Of a stretch of DNA of 29,867 bases, positions 5,649 through 26,947 are shown piece by piece. The DNA comes from a virus. The stretch is taken from the IMG/VR virus record IMGVR_UViG_3300017726_000053, positions 1 through 29,867 of that record, one strand, 5' to 3'. The position numbers were made by a program, and so were the translations under genes. The number at the start of each line of letters is the position of its first letter. Positions within the stretch are counted from its first letter, which is position 1. The notes below the pieces were generated by a model that ran no database searches, was not told where the DNA came from, and was given only the letters and a program-made list of their open reading frames with translations.

Positions 5649-6398
5649 TTAATACGTTGCACCCAAAGCCTTCGCCCAAGCCTCATTGTCAGTATCCTTA
5701 AACTCTATTTGCCTGAGATCGGGCCTGATTACCATGTCAACGATTGGTGTAGCCCATTTTAATTTGAGATTTTCATAACATCCGAAATTCCATGAATTTA
5801 TGTTGTATTTATTGCGGCCTGTTTGATACAGCTCGCCGTAAAGCAGCCGCTCATCATCTGTCATTGCGATGCAGTAATGGCCCCCAAGCGCGTTCTTATC
5901 GACATAATGATGCCAAATGGGGTCTGCGTTGATGATGTCGAGATTGCCGTGCTGCCAGCTTGCTGGGTGCTCAATGTCTTGATCCAAGTCCCAGACGATG
6001 CACATGGTCGAATGATTGTAATTGCCATGCAGATAGACAGATTTGTTGTAAAACCTCTCGCTGCCATGTTTGCTGAGGTGTTGGCAAAGCACCAGAGTAG
6101 GCTCTGTCAAACTTTTTAAATCAACCTCGCAGTGCGCTGTCTCTATGTTTTGAACCGTTGCGAGTATTGGGATCGGCGGGTTTGAAAAAAATATCTGCTG
6201 CGGCTCGCAGACAAGTATTCCAGCATATTCCTCCGCGTCGGCAAGGGAGATCCCGATGTCACCGGACTTATGCCGTGATAAGGTTGCTGGTTGAATACCC
6301 TTAAGCTCTGCGACCATCTTGTTCGTCAAGCCAGAGCGCTGAATCATCTTATTTAGATTGTTAGGCGCCATGTTGTAGTCCTTGTTGAGTGTTACCAT
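5649..6398 (-). CDS. CI-like repressor with N-terminal XRE-type HTH
   Basis: A 249-residue lysogeny repressor candidate. ATG 6398 is preferred: GGAGG lies 10 bases before it, whereas the ATG at 6407 almost touches that site. Residues about 10-65 are an XRE-type helix-turn-helix (NNLNKMIQRSGLTNKMVAEL, then IQPATLSRHKSG). The C-terminal 170 residues, with PILATVQ, VYLHGNYNH and WATPIVDMVI, have the general layout of a CI/LexA oligomerisation domain, but no clear Ser-Lys autoprotease pair was found, so SOS cleavage is doubtful. It is divergent from the Cro-like gene, with operators O3 and O4 between. A+T content is higher than in the neighbours, common for immunity genes. Confidence 0.8.
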   Translation of the reverse strand: MVTLNKDYNMAPNNLNKMIQRSGLTNKMVAELKGIQPATLSRHKSGDIGISLADAEEYAGILVCEPQQIFFSNPPIPILATVQNIETAHCEVDLKSLTEPTLVLCQHLSKHGSERFYNKSVYLHGNYNHSTMCIVWDLDQDIEHPASWQHGNLDIINADPIWHHYVDKNALGGHYCIAMTDDERLLYGELYQTGRNKYNINSWNFGCYENLKLKWATPIVDMVIRPDLRQIEFKDTDNEAWAKALGATY

Positions 6399-6412
6399 GG
6401 CAAGCATACCTC

Positions 6413-6430
6413 CTTGTCGTTATGCGTCAA
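6413..6430. promoter_or_regulatory. Operator O3 at the repressor leader
   Basis: TTGTCG-TTATG-CGTCAA (6414-6430) matches the phage palindrome with one arm diverged. It lies just upstream of the GGAGG site of the repressor gene, downstream of its candidate -10, so occupancy would limit repressor transcription (autoregulation). No -10 box follows at a suitable distance on either strand, so it is not itself a promoter. Confidence 0.6.
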
Positions 6431-6440
6431 TGTCAGGAAA

Positions 6441-6481
6441 GAGATAAGCGCATTGACGAAATAAGTCAAGCTGCTTACATT
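6441..6481. promoter_or_regulatory. Operator O4 with divergent PR and PRM-like promoters
   Basis: TTGACG-AAATA-AGTCAA spans 6453-6469. Rightward: -35 TTGACG (6453-6458), 17-base spacer, -10 TACATT (6476-6481), leading to the Cro-like gene. Leftward: -35 TTGACT (6469-6464), 17-base spacer, -10 TATCTC (6446-6441), leading to the repressor. Both -35 boxes are the two arms of the same palindrome, so one bound dimer would cover both promoters. Boxes are read by eye; activity is inferred. Confidence 0.7.
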
Positions 6482-6511
6482 AGGACAAATATTAACTGTC
6501 CGGAAAACGTA

Positions 6512-6724
6512 ATGCAGCTTAACAATTATCGACAAAAAAAGGGCTGGTCCTATAGCCAGCTGGCGCGTTTGCTGGGTGCAAGCCACGCAACTGTGGTGCG
6601 CCGCTGGTGCTTGCCGCATGGCGACAAACAGCGGTTGATACCGAATCCAGACAATATGGACAAGGTCATGCTGCTGACCCAAGGCGAAGTCATGCCAAAC
6701 GATTTCTACATTCGCCATGACTGA
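6512..6724 (+). CDS. Cro-like small helix-turn-helix protein
   Basis: Seventy residues from ATG 6512; the longer frame to 6389 runs through the promoter and operators, so it is rejected. Residues 1-35 form a helix-turn-helix: a short lead MQLNNYRQKKGWSYSQLARLL, then GASHATVVRRW as turn and recognition helix. Size, orientation (divergent from the repressor) and placement right after the rightward promoter match Cro of lambda-like phages, which represses the immunity promoters during lytic growth. Only a weak ribosome binding site (GGAAAA) is seen. It overlaps the next gene by 8 bases. Confidence 0.75.
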   Translation: MQLNNYRQKKGWSYSQLARLLGASHATVVRRWCLPHGDKQRLIPNPDNMDKVMLLTQGEVMPNDFYIRHD

Positions 6725-19680: not shown

Positions 19681-20132
19681 TCATTCTGGATTATCAGGCC
19701 GATCATGCCAGAGAGATAATCAACGGCCACATGAACAAAGGCGCACCTCAAAATGTGCTGGGGATGCGTGATTTTGCAGATGACCTTGTTGTGCCTGAGA
19801 TGTCCTTCACCGGCGTTGCCGAGCAAGGTCTGGTCTGCTGTGCTGGCATAAACCCGCTTTGGGAGGGTGTGGGCGAGGCTTGGGTCATCGCCAGCAGTCT
19901 GCTGCACGAAAACAGAATGGCCGTTGTACGGGCCACAAAGCGCCTTTTATGGCAGATGATTACACACCAGAATTTCTGGCGGGTGCAGGCTTGCGTCCGT
20001 ACAGATTGGCCCGAGGCAATGCGTTATGCAGAGTTTTTCGGGATGCAAAATGAAGGCGTTATGAAACGGTACGGGCCTGACGGTTCCGACTACTATAGAT
20101 ATGCTTGGGTGAAAGAATGTCTCCAAAACTAG
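19677..20132 (+). CDS. Internal virion protein A-like, GNAT-type acetyltransferase fold
   Basis: One hundred fifty-one residues, ATGA overlap with the nozzle gene. It occupies the slot of T7 gp13. The pattern VCCAGINPLWEGVGEAWVI, a helix HENRMAVVRATKRLLWQMI, then WRVQACVRTDWPEAMRYAEFFGMQNEGVMKRYGPDGSDYYRYAWV is that of a GNAT acetyltransferase-like fold common in podovirus proteins here. Whether it still acetylates is unknown. It may help assembly of the internal core or be a virion component. Confidence 0.75.
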   Translation: MIILDYQADHAREIINGHMNKGAPQNVLGMRDFADDLVVPEMSFTGVAEQGLVCCAGINPLWEGVGEAWVIASSLLHENRMAVVRATKRLLWQMITHQNFWRVQACVRTDWPEAMRYAEFFGMQNEGVMKRYGPDGSDYYRYAWVKECLQN

Positions 20133-20620
20133 CGATGACTGCAATGGCTGGCGCAACGGCTGTCAGCGCCTATGGATCTTTACAGCAAGGACGCACGGCA
20201 AAAGCTGCCAGTGATTACAACGCAGCAATCAATGACCGTAATGCGCTTATTAAGGATCAGGAAGCAGCCCAGATCGTTATGTCAGAGGAGCTGGCGATTG
20301 AAAGGTTCAAACGTGAATATGCCGGCTTTGCAGACGCGCAACAGCAGGCGTTCAGATATAACGGCTGGATGGCTGATGGCGACACACCCTTGCTTGTAGC
20401 GCTCGCGTCGGCTCAGGAGGCAGATGAGGAAATAGCCATTCGCCGCTTCAACGCCAAGGTCGGGGCGGGGCAGGCCAGAGAAGAAGGCTTGCAGCAGCGC
20501 ATGGCTGGCAATCTCAACCGCATGTATGGCAGATCAGCGCGGGATGCCGGCAGGATGAGGGCGCTCGGAACACTGCTATCGGGCGCATCTAACGCAAGCT
20601 ACATACAGGCGACAGCATAA
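20117..20620 (+). CDS. Internal virion protein B-like (T7 gp14 slot)
   Basis: One hundred sixty-seven residues from ATG 20117, with GGTGAAAG as ribosome binding site; a TTG at 20105 lies before that site. It begins with a hydrophobic Ala/Gly stretch (LAMTAMAGATAVSAYGSL, residues 5-22), like the small membrane-active gp14 ejection protein, followed by long charged helices (NAAINDRNALIKDQEAAQIV, EADEEIAIRRFNAKVGAG). It is expected to enter the host outer membrane after ejection. The position between the GNAT-like and gp15-like genes supports this. Confidence 0.75.
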   Translation: MSPKLAMTAMAGATAVSAYGSLQQGRTAKAASDYNAAINDRNALIKDQEAAQIVMSEELAIERFKREYAGFADAQQQAFRYNGWMADGDTPLLVALASAQEADEEIAIRRFNAKVGAGQAREEGLQQRMAGNLNRMYGRSARDAGRMRALGTLLSGASNASYIQATA

Positions 20621-22413
20621 TGAAAGTGCCAACATACACAGCCCAGACCCAGCGCACCAATCGCGTCAGCGGAATCCAGATGACGGTGCAGGCCAACGCT
20701 AACGCTTTGAACCAGTCCAACGCGGCGATCACACAAGTTGCGAATAACGCAGCTGAGATCAGCGCGAATTGGTACAAAACAGAGCTGGGTAACCAGCGCG
20801 CCGCAGAAGTGGCGCGAGCGGAGAATGATTTTAACGTAAGGCTGCAGGAAACGGTTGTGCAGTCCAAAGATGTTGAAGCGCCGCAAGTGCGTGGGTTTTT
20901 CGACAATCAGGCAAAATCGACAGCTGCAAGCATTGCAAGCTCAATCACAGACACGGTGTCGCGCAAAAGGTTTTTGTCCAAGGCCGAAGATCTGACAATC
21001 GCCAAACGGCTGTCTGTGCTGCAGGATGCCCGTGCCAGAGCCATTGACGGCGAGGCAGCTGCCTTCTACGAGGGCGCCGAGACACACATCAGAAATGCCG
21101 CATCCGGTAACGCCACAGAGCGCCAGATGGCAACCGAAATGCTTTTCGGAACATCAAGCTCTGTTGGTCTTTATCAATATATGGCAGACGCCGGTTACAT
21201 CACGCAGCAGCGGCGCGTTGAGCTGGAATCAGACGCAAGGTCACAGATTGACAGGTCAAGTGTCAGGCAGCAGCTAAACGCAGCGTCAATCAGCAAAGAT
21301 CCGGCAAACGCGATGGCGGTTTTGCAGCAGCTGCAAGATCCGGCAAATTTCAAATATCTGAAGCCTGCCGACCGTGACAGCCTGACAGGACAGGCAAACA
21401 CATTGGCTGAAACTCTCCAGCGAGCAGCTGTTGCAGCTGAGGCAAAAGCAGATACAAACGCCGCAAAAAAAATGAAAGCGAAACAGAACGCTAATTTTGC
21501 TGACTTAATGACACAAGTGCGGCGAGCAAATGAGGGTATTGATGGTGCAAGTCTGCCAAATTTGCTGGACGTTATTACGATGCGCGGCAATCAGGAGCTG
21601 ACAGAAACACAGTATAAAGCGATAAGCGATGCTATCGAAGGACGCGACGCGCCTGCCACAAATACACAGGTCGCAATGAATTTTCGTCAAAAGATAATGC
21701 AAGCTGAAACCGCCGAAGAAATCGACGAAATCACGACGGAGCTATACACGCATCTGGGGCCAGCTGGCGACATTAAAATGGCAGATGCAATATCTATCCT
21801 GAGTTTGGCTGATGGCGCAAAATCCAAAACGCCGGAGGCGCGGGACATCAAACACTATGAAGGGCTGCTCAAAAAAGGCATCGGCGTTAAGACAGATGGG
21901 ATCGTTATATTTGGCAACTCAGGCCCGTCGGCAGAAACGATTGAACGCCGCAATGACGCTCTGGATACATACCATCGTCTGACCACAGACCCCGACGATC
22001 CGATCCCGCCGCGCCAAGCGTATCAAGAAGTGTTGTTGCAAAATAGGGAGGCAGTAGCACAAGATCTGGCGTTTATAGCCCCCAGCACCGCAACATATAG
22101 TGTTGTCGGCAAAAAAGATTTTTCAAAGTGGACAAGGCAGGATTTCGTCAAAGCTAAAATAAGCGTTAGGAGCATGACAACCGCTGCGGGTTTGCGTTTA
22201 ACGCCGTTGCAGCAGGATCTGGAAATGGAAACGCTGCAACTGCTTGAGGCTTACATGGAAGAAGAAGGGTTGTTTGAAGGCGCCCCAGTTGTCGAGGAAA
22301 ATAACCAAGAAACAGGAGCTGGAGCCCCGACAGTCGTAGACCAAATCCAGCAATATCTCGGCGGCGATGATTCTATCCAGTCCCGCGAAGATGCGCTGGC
22401 AAACCCACAATAG
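20620..22413 (+). CDS. Internal virion protein C-like (T7 gp15 slot)
   Basis: A 597-residue, largely helical, charged protein rich in Ala, Gln and Glu. It begins MKVPTYTAQTQRTNRV, with later helices such as RVELESDARSQIDRSSVRQQLNAASI and PADRDSLTGQANTLAETLQRAA. It is in the place of T7 gp15, an ejected core protein that lines a channel across the periplasm. Sequence likeness to T7 itself is low, so the call rests on position, size and helical composition. Start shares a base with the previous stop. Confidence 0.7.
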   Translation: MKVPTYTAQTQRTNRVSGIQMTVQANANALNQSNAAITQVANNAAEISANWYKTELGNQRAAEVARAENDFNVRLQETVVQSKDVEAPQVRGFFDNQAKSTAASIASSITDTVSRKRFLSKAEDLTIAKRLSVLQDARARAIDGEAAAFYEGAETHIRNAASGNATERQMATEMLFGTSSSVGLYQYMADAGYITQQRRVELESDARSQIDRSSVRQQLNAASISKDPANAMAVLQQLQDPANFKYLKPADRDSLTGQANTLAETLQRAAVAAEAKADTNAAKKMKAKQNANFADLMTQVRRANEGIDGASLPNLLDVITMRGNQELTETQYKAISDAIEGRDAPATNTQVAMNFRQKIMQAETAEEIDEITTELYTHLGPAGDIKMADAISILSLADGAKSKTPEARDIKHYEGLLKKGIGVKTDGIVIFGNSGPSAETIERRNDALDTYHRLTTDPDDPIPPRQAYQEVLLQNREAVAQDLAFIAPSTATYSVVGKKDFSKWTRQDFVKAKISVRSMTTAAGLRLTPLQQDLEMETLQLLEAYMEEEGLFEGAPVVEENNQETGAGAPTVVDQIQQYLGGDDSIQSREDALANPQ

Positions 22414-22420
22414 GTGAAAA

Positions 22421-23878
22421 ATGAACGATCTTGCACATGATTATGTCACCGCTCGCCGACGCATGGCGCAGAAAGCTAGGTTTGCAAAGCGCATAGAAGA
22501 TGAGGGTTTGAGTGATTTCGTAAACTCCGACTATATGTTCGACAATGATGTCATCGGAGTGCCGGAGCCTGACGCTGATGACGAGCTTGCAAACAACGCC
22601 TCATGGCAACAGGACAGCCGGATTGTCCATGACTATTTCGCCAGTCTGCGCCCGTCCAACGGCATGTCTATGCAGCAGATGATGGCAGAAGGTGCTGACA
22701 TGGCGACATTGAACGCCGAAGCTGCCAAGCAGCCGCCAACAAATTTCGGTCAATGGGGCTTAGAGTTCATGGGCGAGTTTAACTATAACTTACCCAAAAT
22801 GGGCATCAGGGCAGCTCAAACCATGGACGCGCCGCCCGAGGTCGCAGGTGCGATGTTCCGACTGATGCAGTCCTATGACGCAAAGCCGGCGACATGGCGC
22901 GGCACACGCAGGGCCATCAAAAACATGTTCCAAGATCCGACAACTTATGTGGGGCTCGGGACTATGGGGTTTGGCTTTATCGGCAAGGCCGGTGTCAAGC
23001 AAGCTGGCAAAAGCGCGTTCATGCAGTATCTGCAGCGCCACGGCGCTACAGCTGCAGCTGGTGCAGCTGAGGGCGGGTTGATCATGTCTGCGGATGACGC
23101 AAGCAGACAGACTGTTAGCATAGCCGCAAAAGACGTATCTGGGCAGGAGGAGTTCGACTTCGGCCAGAACCTTGTGAGCACAGGAGTTGGCGCCGCAGCT
23201 GGCCTTATACTCGCTGGTGCTGTACCGCAGGGCGCAACTGCAATTTACAAAAAGATAAACCCGACAGAGCGGCTGCTCACAAAGGTTTATGAAAATGCTG
23301 AGGAGGCGCAGGAAGGGCTCGTGTCCTACTTGCGAAAAGCTGTGGAGGAGGAGCCTCTCGAGGTTGACGGCCGGCCGGTAATTTCAGACACAGGGCCAAA
23401 TGTGATAGATCCAAAAATCAAAGGGAAAGCCCGTGCGCGCGCAAAAGTGAAGCGCAAGGGCTACGATAGCCCCGATGACTTTACAGATATCGTCAGGGCT
23501 GGCGTCACTGTTGACCGGCCTGACGAGGCAGACGCAGTGGTTGCGGCTCTTGCCAAAAACTATGAGATCACAGACGAGGGCTGGCAGTTGTATGGCGGCG
23601 GCTATTTTGACCGTAAAATCATGGTCAAGACCCCCGAGGGCAAAACAGCAGAAGTGCAATTATTCAGTAGGGAAATTTCCGATATCAAAGAAGATCTGCA
23701 CAAATATTACGAAGAAGCGCAAAAGTTTGAGAAGGCAGCGAAAGCTGGCAACCCAGAAGCCAAACAAAGTTATGACGCCCAGATGAGGCAAGGAGCCGAG
23801 GCGGCTGCAGCCGCACTGCTCGCCGGCCAGCAAATGTGGCAGCCTATTTATGACCAGATCGGCGTGGCACTGCAGTAA
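22421..23878 (+). CDS. Ejection-region protein with C-terminal RelA/SpoT-like domain
   Basis: A 485-residue protein behind AGGTGA. Residues 1-170 are helical and polar. Two Gly/Ala-rich hydrophobic stretches follow (about 175-195, and 251-270, VSTGVGAAAGLILAGAVPQG) that could enter membrane. Residues about 285-432 carry a RelA/SpoT nucleotidyltransferase-like order: basic KGKARARAKVKRK (334-346), DIVRAGVTVD (356-365), GGGYFDRKIMV (392-402), EVQLFSREI (411-419) and HKYYEEA (427-433). Spacing Asp356, Tyr395, Glu411 is close to the Asp264, Tyr308, Glu323 of RelSeq, but the Ser-x-x-His after the Tyr is absent. The Ala-rich C-terminus follows. It sits between gp15-like and LPD-type virion genes, so the domain may be ejected into the host. 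Enzyme activity is unproven. Confidence 0.6.
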   Translation: MNDLAHDYVTARRRMAQKARFAKRIEDEGLSDFVNSDYMFDNDVIGVPEPDADDELANNASWQQDSRIVHDYFASLRPSNGMSMQQMMAEGADMATLNAEAAKQPPTNFGQWGLEFMGEFNYNLPKMGIRAAQTMDAPPEVAGAMFRLMQSYDAKPATWRGTRRAIKNMFQDPTTYVGLGTMGFGFIGKAGVKQAGKSAFMQYLQRHGATAAAGAAEGGLIMSADDASRQTVSIAAKDVSGQEEFDFGQNLVSTGVGAAAGLILAGAVPQGATAIYKKINPTERLLTKVYENAEEAQEGLVSYLRKAVEEEPLEVDGRPVISDTGPNVIDPKIKGKARARAKVKRKGYDSPDDFTDIVRAGVTVDRPDEADAVVAALAKNYEITDEGWQLYGGGYFDRKIMVKTPEGKTAEVQLFSREISDIKEDLHKYYEEAQKFEKAAKAGNPEAKQSYDAQMRQGAEAAAAALLAGQQMWQPIYDQIGVALQ

Positions 23879-23927: not shown

Positions 23928-23954
23928 AGGCGGCTGCGGCTGCCTTTTTTGTTG
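23928..23954 (+). terminator. Intrinsic terminator between virion genes
   Basis: AGGCGGC (23928-23934) pairs with GCTGCCT (23939-23945), seven pairs with one G-T, with loop TGCG, followed by TTTTTT (23945-23950) and GTTG. It lies in the 81-base gap before the 995-residue gene, with the start codon only 6 bases downstream, so partial termination and limited ribosome access are expected. Confidence 0.7.
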
Positions 23955-23959
23955 CGCGA

Positions 23960-26947
23960 ATGGCGATACCCAAAACGGCACCAGACGATCTGGCCCAGTC
24001 ATCAATCCTGACGGGTGGCCTAACAGATCCCCTGCAGGGAAACGATGTCCTGCAATCCGCTCCCAGCGTAGCATCTGGCTCGTCTATGATCGGGCTTGAT
24101 GTCGTCGCGCCACCACAAAACATTGATCAAGAAGTTGTTGAGCTCGCCAGTGCTCGGTGGTTGACGCGGCCGCTGGTTCGTATGTTTTCGGGTGACTTCG
24201 ACAACGTGTTCAGCCGTTCAGCTGACGAGCTGGAGGATCTGAGGACACGCGAGCAGCTGCCTGATGAGGCTGACAACGATGCCTTGCTGGACGAAATGCA
24301 GGCGGCTGATGAAAATGTCAGGGTGAAGGACGCAGGCTTGGCGACTGAGGAGCAGGCAGCTGAGGTCGCAGCCGCTATGGATCAGCCAGCACAGATCTCA
24401 GATGATGGGATGTTGCGTGATTTCAGAGCTGTTGGCAGCGCCGGCGACGCCAAGATTCCCGATGAGGGCAGCATCCTGTCAACGATTGATGGCATCAGCC
24501 AGACATATCGCGGCACGATTGACGAGGCCACGCGCGGTGTGCAGACCCAGCAAGCGACAAGAGAGCTGGCTGATTACATAGGTGTCACGCCTAACAAGCT
24601 GACAAACAACATACTGAACCGTAAACGCGGTGGCGTAATTTTCCAAGAAGGCATGGGGCTCGCAGAGACAATGCTTGCCGCAAGAGATCTGCTGGTCAAG
24701 GAATCCGAAACACTCGACGGTCTGGCAAAGAAGGCTGCGACTGGCACAGACGAGGACGCTCTTGCGTTTCGTCAGCAGCTGGAGCTGGTCGCGCAGATGC
24801 AGGCTCAAATCAAGGGGTCGCAGACAGAAATCGCCAGAGCTCTAGGCTCGTTTCGCATACCGGCCAGAACCGGCAACGCACCGGATGCGCTGCGCGGCAC
24901 AGATCTTTCCGCGATGCTAAACCAGCATGGCGGGGCAGATAACATCCGCGACATGGCCGCTGCCTACAATCAGGCGAACACAAGGTCACAGCGGCTTGCG
25001 GTTGCCCGTAAAGGCGCGACTGCAAAAACCTTTGATGCCTTCTATGAAGCGTGGATAAACATCCTTCTGTCTAGCCCAGTGACACATGTGAAGAACACTG
25101 CCGGTGCTTTTTTAACAACATTCGCACATATCCCCGAAACTGTTGTCGGCGGCGCCATAGGGACTACCCGCAGGGCTATGGGAGGTCAGGGCGGCATGTA
25201 TATGGGCGAGAGCAGGGCTCTCATGTTTGGCGCAATGATGTCGATGCGTGACGCCTTTGCTGCAGCTGGCCGGTCATTCAAGACGGGCGAGCGCCCGATT
25301 GCAGGCTCAAAGATTGAGATGGTCGGTGGCCGTGATCACATCAACGCTTTCAGCGCTGAGGGCTTTGGCATGGCGTCCTATGGCGGCAGTTTTTTCTCCG
25401 CTGAACGACTGAAAAGTGGCAAACTTGGCACTACAGTCGATATGCTCGGCAGTCTAATGACGCTGGGCAGGGTGCCGACTAGGGCGCTTGAGTTCGAAGA
25501 TACGCTTTTCAAGGTTATGGCTCAGCGCATGAGCCTTTACCAAAACGCTTACAGGACAGGCCGCACCAAAGGCCTGAACGGCGAGGCGTTATCAACGCAC
25601 ATCGCTGAGTTTATGATGGACCCGCCTGCAGAAGCGCTAAAGGGTGCAGATGCCCACGCCCAATATGTGACCTTGCAAACCGATCTCGACAAGCTCGGCA
25701 AGGATCTAAACGGAGTGCGGAACAACGCACTGATGCGACTTATGGTGCCGTTTTTCAAAACGCCATACAACGCCACTAAATACGCGATGATCGACAGGAG
25801 CCTCATAGGCGCGTTCTGGGGCGAAAGTAGCCGCATCATCAAGCGCGGCAGGGCGCCGGATGCGACGGATGCAGACAGAGCTGCCGCCGATATGGCAAAG
25901 GCGAGGATTGCCATGGGCAGCACCACAATGGCAGTCGTCACTGGGTATGCGCTCGACGGTCAAATCACAGGAGCTGGGCCGAACGATCCTGACTTGCGTA
26001 GAGCAATGATCCGCTCCGGATGGCAGCCTTACTCAGTGAGGGTCGGCGATCAGTATTACAGCTATCAAGGCTCAGAGCCTTTCTCGTCAATTATCGGCAT
26101 GGCTGCAGATTTTGCCGAAGTCGGGATATCTGGCGCGCTCGACGGCGATGCAATGGAAGAAATGGCCAATGGCCTTATCGCGGCTGCGGCGAACCAAGTA
26201 ACTGATAAAACCTTTATGTCGGGCTTTGCTGACTTCGTCGCAACGCTGAATGACCCATCGCGCTATGGCGGCAGCCTGACTGACCGGCTGGCAAGATCTG
26301 TTGTACCAAGAATTTTCGCTCAGATAGAAAGGCAGACAGACCCCACAGTCAGCGCAGCGCGCGGCAAACTCGACCAGATCAGATCACAGATTCCAGCGCT
26401 AAGTGGAGAGCTGGAGGCAAAGCGTAATTTCTGGGGCATGAAAGTGTTTAGCTCTGGAGCAGCTGGTCCTGATCTAATTAGCCCGATTTATTCCAGCACC
26501 TATGGGCCTAACAAATTGTCCGAGATTGATGCCGGCATGGGCGCTGAGGCTTATGCTGAGAAAGCGTTTGCGATTGATCAAGAGTTTATTGAGCTGCGGT
26601 ACGGGCCGAGCAAGCATCCGGAAGTCATGCGTGAGGGTGTCGGCCTGACTGACAGAGAGGTAGCCATATTCCATCAGTATGCCGGTATGCGCTCTTTTGA
26701 GCGGCTGTCGGCGATGATTGAAGATGATGGATACAAGGCTTTGAAAGAGGCCGCGCTTGCTGGCGATCTTGATGCAAGGGCCGTTCTGCACGACGCCTTC
26801 AATCGTGAAATCACAAAAGCAAGAAAACAAGCAAAGCAAGATCTGATTGACGACCAGAACGTAGGCCCAGCCGTAACCGCACGGATCAAGGCTTTCGGGG
26901 AGCTCCAACAGGAAAAGCGGAACAGGATCAATGAGGCAGTGAGATGA
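23960..26947 (+). CDS. Large virion protein, LPD-type ejection protein (T7 gp16 slot)
   Basis: A 995-residue protein in the place of T7 gp16. The start is ATG 23960, but no good ribosome binding site precedes it and a terminator hairpin ends just upstream; the frame is stopped above. The N-terminal 260 residues are acidic and polar. Residues about 350-620 (FYEAWINILLSSPVTHVKNTAGAF, ALEFEDTLFKVMAQRMSLYQNAYR, MVPFFKTPYNATKY) match the large polyvalent-protein associated domain found in giant phage and conjugative-element proteins. No lysozyme motif was found. The C-terminus is charged and helical. It is probably packaged and ejected, forming the channel. Overlaps the fibre gene (ATGA). Confidence 0.7.
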   Translation: MAIPKTAPDDLAQSSILTGGLTDPLQGNDVLQSAPSVASGSSMIGLDVVAPPQNIDQEVVELASARWLTRPLVRMFSGDFDNVFSRSADELEDLRTREQLPDEADNDALLDEMQAADENVRVKDAGLATEEQAAEVAAAMDQPAQISDDGMLRDFRAVGSAGDAKIPDEGSILSTIDGISQTYRGTIDEATRGVQTQQATRELADYIGVTPNKLTNNILNRKRGGVIFQEGMGLAETMLAARDLLVKESETLDGLAKKAATGTDEDALAFRQQLELVAQMQAQIKGSQTEIARALGSFRIPARTGNAPDALRGTDLSAMLNQHGGADNIRDMAAAYNQANTRSQRLAVARKGATAKTFDAFYEAWINILLSSPVTHVKNTAGAFLTTFAHIPETVVGGAIGTTRRAMGGQGGMYMGESRALMFGAMMSMRDAFAAAGRSFKTGERPIAGSKIEMVGGRDHINAFSAEGFGMASYGGSFFSAERLKSGKLGTTVDMLGSLMTLGRVPTRALEFEDTLFKVMAQRMSLYQNAYRTGRTKGLNGEALSTHIAEFMMDPPAEALKGADAHAQYVTLQTDLDKLGKDLNGVRNNALMRLMVPFFKTPYNATKYAMIDRSLIGAFWGESSRIIKRGRAPDATDADRAAADMAKARIAMGSTTMAVVTGYALDGQITGAGPNDPDLRRAMIRSGWQPYSVRVGDQYYSYQGSEPFSSIIGMAADFAEVGISGALDGDAMEEMANGLIAAAANQVTDKTFMSGFADFVATLNDPSRYGGSLTDRLARSVVPRIFAQIERQTDPTVSAARGKLDQIRSQIPALSGELEAKRNFWGMKVFSSGAAGPDLISPIYSSTYGPNKLSEIDAGMGAEAYAEKAFAIDQEFIELRYGPSKHPEVMREGVGLTDREVAIFHQYAGMRSFERLSAMIEDDGYKALKEAALAGDLDARAVLHDAFNREITKARKQAKQDLIDDQNVGPAVTARIKAFGELQQEKRNRINEAVR

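Follow-up and report, generated by a model that had tools for sequence, protein, structure and literature searches.

The DNA analyzed here (the window) is a stretch of 29,867 nucleotides (nt), positions 1 to 29,867 of IMG/VR virus record IMGVR_UViG_3300017726_000053, and the gene in question is an open reading frame (ORF) within it for a protein of 485 amino acids (aa). By homology and gene order in the ejection block this protein is classed as a T7 gp16-type ejection protein, one of the proteins that short-tailed phages carry in the particle and drive into the cell along with their DNA. Its C-terminal part was modelled with the fold of a RelA/SpoT-type synthetase, a bacterial enzyme of stress-signal (alarmone) synthesis. 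The gene and its neighbors comprise the following features.

20105..20620, plus strand: gp14-like internal virion protein (phrog_418 internal virion protein, E 1e-7).
20620..22413, plus strand: ORF in the gp15 position of the ejection block, assigned by position and size between the gp14-like ORF and the split gp16; no PHROG match was found for it.
22421..23878, plus strand: 485-aa ejection protein, the N-terminal half of a split gp16-type protein with a RelA/SpoT-like domain at its C-terminal end (ORF, homology).
22580..23128, plus strand: conserved N-module, residues 54-236 (LUZ100 gp47 by tblastn and blastp; 80 IMG/VR loci).
23159..23248, plus strand: hydrophobic Gly/Ala stretch, about residues 247-276, a putative membrane-inserting segment directly before the enzyme domain.
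23243..23875, plus strand: RelA/SpoT-type synthetase (nucleotidyltransferase, NTase) domain, residues 275-485 as modelled (AlphaFold2, Foldseek, profiles).
23372-23740, plus strand: core of the RelA/SpoT-type domain, residues 318-440.
23928..23945, plus strand: terminator-like hairpin with a T-run after it, within the 81 nt that separate the gp16 halves.
23960..26947, plus strand: gp16-C-like half of the ejection protein, 995 aa (phrog_6651 internal virion protein, E 5e-34).

The ejection block and its gp16-type carrier

Residues 54-236 matched the N-terminus of LUZ100 gp47, annotated internal virion D (E 5e-20, 35% over 183 aa), and the ORF at 23960..26947 aligned weakly to the later part of the same protein. 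As the N-module corresponds to the gp47 N-terminus and the next ORF is an internal virion protein, the window holds a gp16-type protein split in two. Eighty IMG/VR loci carrying the N-module were compared; the complete short ORFs with the RelA/SpoT-type domain were all split (15/15), and the complete long ORFs were all without it (51/51). The only other complete short ORFs were L075, a complete 543-aa ORF that is without the domain and broken at another place, and a 71-aa fragment of L027. In split loci whose contig continues, homologues of the gp16-C ORF come after the Rel-bearing N-part. Over its whole length the 485-aa protein was 44-46% identical to seven IMG/VR homologues. The original prediction had placed a RelA/SpoT-like domain in an ejection protein; the domain and its location stood, between the gp15-position ORF and the gp16-C-like ORF, with the refinement that the carrier is no separate effector gene but one half, the N-terminal one, of a split gp16-type protein.

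The idea that a programmed frameshift links the two halves was rejected, as spacing and frame relation vary between lineages and the gap in the window has in-frame stops. Terminator-like sites as a class numbered 11 (8.3 expected in shuffles). The hydrophobic Gly/Ala stretch noted ahead of the domain was recovered by Kyte-Doolittle analysis (best 19-residue window 1.73, starting at residue 251), and it may insert in the membrane.

Profile, fold and catalytic-site evidence

The motifs from which the domain was first proposed, at residues 285-432 (23273-23716), were all present: basic cluster, DIVRAGVTVD, GGGYFDRK, EVQL and HKYYEE, with K334/K336/K342, D356, Y395, E411 and H427/Y430 at the positions given and spacings of 39 (Asp356-Tyr395) and 16 residues (Tyr395-Glu411). 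Direct Pfam, PHROG and NCBIfam scans of the 485-aa protein returned no RelA_SpoT match, so that PF04607 was not reached at its curated cut-off, and a single-sequence PDB search gave nothing relevant. A tblastn search with the C-terminal region matched none of 50,697 phage records, and none of these records carries the domain on a gp16-type protein; among plasmids the search gave a single weak match, in Rhodococcus (E 2). Single-sequence tools thus miss the domain, and profile and fold evidence was needed.

Two bridges led to known families. The Rhodococcus plasmid protein, whose gene is adjoined by an HD_4 gene, scored 20 bits against PF04607 (E 9e-4), short of the cut-off of 27, and led on to MuF head proteins in phages of Streptococcus and Pasteurella; these head proteins belong to the type published as Apk2 (p)ppApp toxins (PMC12226406). 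The second was a polyvalent-protein domain (L020), 31% identical to the window over 139 aa, which itself passes PF04607 (E 3.7e-11). A hidden Markov model of eight other RelA/SpoT-like domains, with the window excluded, picked the window protein out of about 6,000 ORFs at 42.6 bits (E 2e-11), clearly separated from the next unrelated ORF; when the region was shuffled 5,000 times, the highest score was 9.4 bits. Two further profiles were run, A8 from ejection/virion-type sequences only and A3 from mostly MuF domains. Against the whole PDB, A8 found Tas1/Apk1 at E 5e-10 and SaEAS at 3e-6; A3 found SaEAS at E 3e-27. Since A8 reaches both Tas1 and SaEAS, the MuF bridge is not needed. Profile matches to RelA/SpoT, which the original prediction looked for, were therefore obtained, with PDB structures matched by the profiles and a homologous ejection protein (L050, below) above the PF04607 curated cut-off. 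The window domain itself lies outside the Pfam threshold, and we describe it as a divergent RelA/SpoT-like subfamily. It is under purifying selection: most pairwise ratios of nonsynonymous to synonymous substitution rates in the Rel region lay at 0.05-0.17, and two were higher (0.31 and 0.46).

The expected NTase fold was found in the structural model. AlphaFold2 with 16 aligned sequences modelled residues 275-485 with high confidence, at a predicted local distance difference test score (pLDDT) of 89.7 and a predicted template modelling (TM) score of 0.84, and all 50 of the PDB matches listed by Foldseek were RelA/SpoT-type synthetases, Tas1 and SaEAS included. The best TM-score among the matches listed was 0.60-0.62, for SaEAS (8vx3_C). 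In the viral library, the best matches were large phage proteins annotated DdrB-like, ART-PolyVal-like or RelA/SpoT. When AlphaFold was run on the whole protein from its single sequence, the model was poor (pLDDT 40.6); its Foldseek list, in which Rib domains and alarmone synthetases were mixed, was not relied on. Residues 275-485 are thus assigned, from the model, the RelA/SpoT synthetase (Pol-beta NTase) fold. A merely chance resemblance in motif order would fit the missing Pfam, PHROG and NCBIfam matches, but the window-free profile, the shuffle control, the fold match and the invariant catalytic residues already refute it, and it retains next to no probability.

The putative active site was located as follows.

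23420-23422 and 23444-23446, plus strand: codons of donor-site lysines K334 and K342, in an R-x-K-x-x-x-S-x-x-x-K region.
23486..23488, plus strand: Asp356, putative metal-binding catalytic Asp of D-x-x-R, the equivalent of SaEAS D121 (role by homology; PMC12691689).
23495-23497, plus strand: Arg359 of D-x-x-R (D356-I-V-R359).
23603..23617, plus strand: acceptor loop Y395-F-D397-R-K399, Tyr395 being the expected base-stacking residue.
23651..23659, plus strand: Glu411-Val-Gln413, the E-x-Q motif, equivalents of SaEAS E182/Q184 (PMC12691689).

Across 12 lineages with 30-56% identity to the window, K342, D356, Y395, D397, K399 and E411 were invariant and K334, R359 and Q413 nearly so; among these are the donor-site lysines, the counterparts of SaEAS D121, R124, E182 and Q184 (PMC12691689) and the acceptor-stacking Tyr. 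In other alignments the columns of K334 and K342 were both invariant. Asp356 and Glu411, whose loss in homologues would have spoken against the assignment, are accordingly both kept. The domain could have the RelA/SpoT fold and yet have lost its enzymatic function, the ejectosome using it for structure or for binding nucleic acid. Enzyme folds can be put to structural use in virion proteins, and non-canonical acceptor-loop residues and a variable His427 would suit such a role, but the donor lysines, metal Asp, stacking Tyr and E-x-Q, all with catalytic roles in homologues, are invariant or nearly so in lineages down to 30% identity and selection is purifying, so we consider loss of activity rather unlikely.

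The acceptor loop (syn3) reads Y-x-S-x-H in (p)ppGpp enzymes and Y-x-G-x-N in (p)ppApp enzymes (PMC12226406). The virion-type consensus in the 12 lineages is Y-[FAL]-D-[RQ]-K. The window thus has D-x-K in place of the S-x-H of the (p)ppGpp synthetases Rel, RelP and RelQ. It shares syn2 D-x-x-R with Apk1/Apk2 (D356-I-V-R359), and has neither their syn3 G-x-N (D-x-K here) nor their syn4 Y-H (L-F in the window, I-W or I-Y in relatives). As read from these residues, the Y-x-D-x-K signature fits neither the SxH nor the GxN class, and the product is not readable from sequence. Given an active enzyme, we judged rather than computed the acceptor: a nucleotide alarmone is the leading candidate at somewhat under an even chance, another acceptor is possible and held tentatively, and tRNA is a minor candidate. 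Pyrophosphorylation of the tRNA CCA end, as in toxSAS, in place of a free alarmone would be a sub-case of the injected-enzyme proposal below and not an addition to it. An acceptor loop outside the SxH and GxN classes (PMC12226406) and the existence of tRNA-targeting toxSAS (PMC11782079) favor it; the nearest solved relatives, Tas1/Apk1 and SaEAS, however make (p)ppApp or both nucleotides (PMC12691689), and an N-terminal tRNA-binding region of the FaRel2 type was not identified.

Relatives and comparison with known systems

The virion-type domain is common to many IMG/VR phages and was carried by 39 loci, a number of them on contigs already among the 80 N-module loci. In L129 to L144 it sits in large virion or polyvalent proteins: it is fused to gp16-C in L144, occurs with LPD38 and ddrB-ParB in L135, and lies beside a phrog_684 virion structural protein; ddrB-ParB and LPD38 were found in relatives L129 and L135, and DUF7178 adjoins the domain in some of this set. 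L050:2360-4219 (same contig as L145) encodes a diverged ejection protein that shares the N-module and the gp16-C partner and has, at the same place, a classical RelA_SpoT domain (DLLGGR, GGYRATH; E 6e-9, 36.6 bits, cut-off 27), which suggests repeated acquisition or strong divergence. L068 (6935-9331, 9428-12424) and L102 (6614-9253, 9357-11960) also encode split gp16-type proteins, with several hundred residues of unrelated sequence in the domain's place; this cargo had no PDB match. The region occupied by the RelA/SpoT domain may therefore be a variable cargo slot. That gp16-type proteins hold between their halves a slot for injected enzymes, filled here by a pyrophosphokinase with new acceptor specificity (Y-x-D-x-K) and no immunity gene and in L068 and L102 by further cargo types, is an extension that we regard as doubtful.

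Two side observations were made. In a near-identical sister contig (L008:4659-7919, same contig as L002) the reading frame is broken where the gp15-position gene ends and again where the Rel-bearing gene starts, through either sequencing error or decay. On Rhodococcus plasmid NZ_CP126459.1 (L010:5205-6435), the HD_4 gene beside the unannotated RelA/SpoT-like synthetase makes a synthetase-hydrolase-like pair, near a type I restriction system.

That RelA/SpoT domains were already known from phage polyvalent and toxin proteins, as had been pointed out, is borne out by the polyvalent proteins and by the MuF Apk2 toxins. Injected RelA/SpoT domains were predicted in 2017 for polyvalent and MuF proteins, with spirochaete and epsilonproteobacterial (pro)phages and MuF fusions named (PMC5512222); MuF Apk2 activity has been shown (PMC12226406), and exported synthetases over several secretion routes were surveyed in 2025 (PMC12691689). 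Polyvalent RelA/SpoT domains (PMC5512222; L020, L135 and L144 here) share with our proposal a predicted injection with phage DNA. The window protein differs in being part of a T7-type ejection block without ddrB-ParB or an LPD domain; it carries no other Pfam domain, and not the several effector or LPD domains in one chain that define polyvalent proteins. Apk2 likewise places a RelA/SpoT-type domain with shared catalytic residues at the C-terminal end of a phage head protein in temperate phages, but its carrier is MuF and not gp16, its acceptor loop is GxN, and iapK and aph1/HD_4 immunity genes follow. Tas1/Apk1, a type VI secretion effector and (p)ppApp synthetase (PDB 6ox6), was the best solved match of the virion-only profile and resembles the window domain in fold, in D-x-x-R, GY and E-x-Q motifs and as C-terminal cargo on a delivery module; it differs in its Y-S-G-V-N loop (Y-F-D-R-K in the window), in delivery by a secretion system and in having been crystallized with an immunity protein. 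SaEAS, an exported alarmone synthetase of Streptomyces albidoflavus (PDB 8vx3), has no associated immunity protein (PMC12691689), which agrees with the window, where no adjacent immunity gene was seen; it differs as a Sec-secreted stand-alone enzyme and in its acceptor-loop Asn169, in whose place the window has Lys399.

Of the carriers, internal virion protein D is nearest: LUZ100 gp47 has the homologous N-module, and LUZ100 gp47 and T7 gp16 the same gene order, but gp47 is one ORF of 1210 aa without a RelA/SpoT domain. No Pfam match to the N-terminal transglycosylase of T7 gp16 (PMC8954989) was found in the window protein. No description of an alarmone synthetase on an internal virion or T7-type ejection protein was found in open-licence papers. 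What is new here is the gp16-type carrier, the Y-x-D-x-K acceptor-loop signature and that no adjacent immunity gene was seen.

The 81-nt gap to the gp16-C ORF leaves no space for an immunity gene. Neither a toxSAS antitoxin gene nor a fused antitoxin domain lies adjacent, the flanks being the gp15-position ORF and gp16-C with nothing between. HD_4 was not found in the 20 records examined (controls positive; IapK itself was not searched). Two features outside the ejection block bear on lifestyle.

1-768: truncated integrase at the left end of the window.
5649-6724: divergent ORF pair resembling by eye a repressor/Cro lysogeny switch.

From these two features the window phage is probably temperate. 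An integrase occurred in 5 of the 20 records, window included; most of the 20 records are fragments. Two scans of genome contigs found no host prophage. In a search for phage RNA polymerase (PF00940) no control matched, and the phage was left without an Autographiviridae assignment.

Proposed action in the infected cell

We regard it as moderately probable that a T7-gp16-type ejection protein is here split in two, that the 485-aa protein, as its N-terminal half, carries a RelA/SpoT-type pyrophosphokinase as cargo, and that the 485-aa protein is injected and active in the host. The computed elements are the predicted fold, the retained catalytic residues, purifying selection, N-module homology to gp16-type proteins and the gp16-C ORF as next gene; from there we infer packaging, injection, topology, activity, product and benefit. 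The virion would contain the protein alongside the other ejection proteins and release it with the DNA, for which gp14/15/16 ejection in T7 is the injection precedent (PMC8954989). Through the hydrophobic stretch the domain would come to lie at the inner membrane or across it, and in the cytoplasm it would transfer pyrophosphate from ATP to a 3'-OH acceptor, which may be a purine nucleotide, the CCA end of tRNA or some other molecule. A fast shift of host nucleotide pools or translation would follow early, ahead of phage gene expression, with a possible benefit for host take-over or the lysogeny decision. With no immunity gene, self-harm would be avoided by late expression, low copy number or inactive packaging.

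Several points weigh against this proposal. D397 and K399 stand in place of the G-N or S-H of characterized enzymes, and activity could be changed; the K-N-T-W stretch seen in Apk2-type domains is absent; His427 varies, being Trp in L113 and L115 and Ala in L143; and Tyr395 is replaced by Phe in one relative, L040. No nearby immunity gene was seen, unlike in Apk2 toxins. The N-terminal part of T7 gp16 remains in the periplasm, where ATP is scarce, and the side reached by the window domain is uncertain.

An active synthetase could also act in the producing cell, late in infection or at prophage induction, for example stopping host metabolism or excluding rivals, with its location in an ejection protein incidental. 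Late structural genes are expressed in that cell, and with no guarding immunity gene an effect there need not be neutralized; the domain nevertheless stays joined to the gp16 N-module beside gp16-C in many lineages, which suggests that delivery matters, and we hold this explanation to be improbable.

For the proposed injected pyrophosphokinase, the possible cost to a host can be illustrated. The ATP pool of a small cell is about two million molecules. The turnover of SaEAS is about 100,000 per minute (PMC12691689), and gp16 is present in T7 in four to six copies (PMC8954989). As an illustration only, six SaEAS-like molecules could in principle process about two million ATP in a few minutes. 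Since T7 offers a well-described case of gp14, gp15 and gp16 ejection, a gp16-type carrier makes virion injection of an alarmone synthetase directly testable. The acceptor loop is conserved yet unlike known classes, and possibly yields a new product. If the proposal is true, the virus may inject an enzyme that disturbs host nucleotides or translation at the moment of infection.
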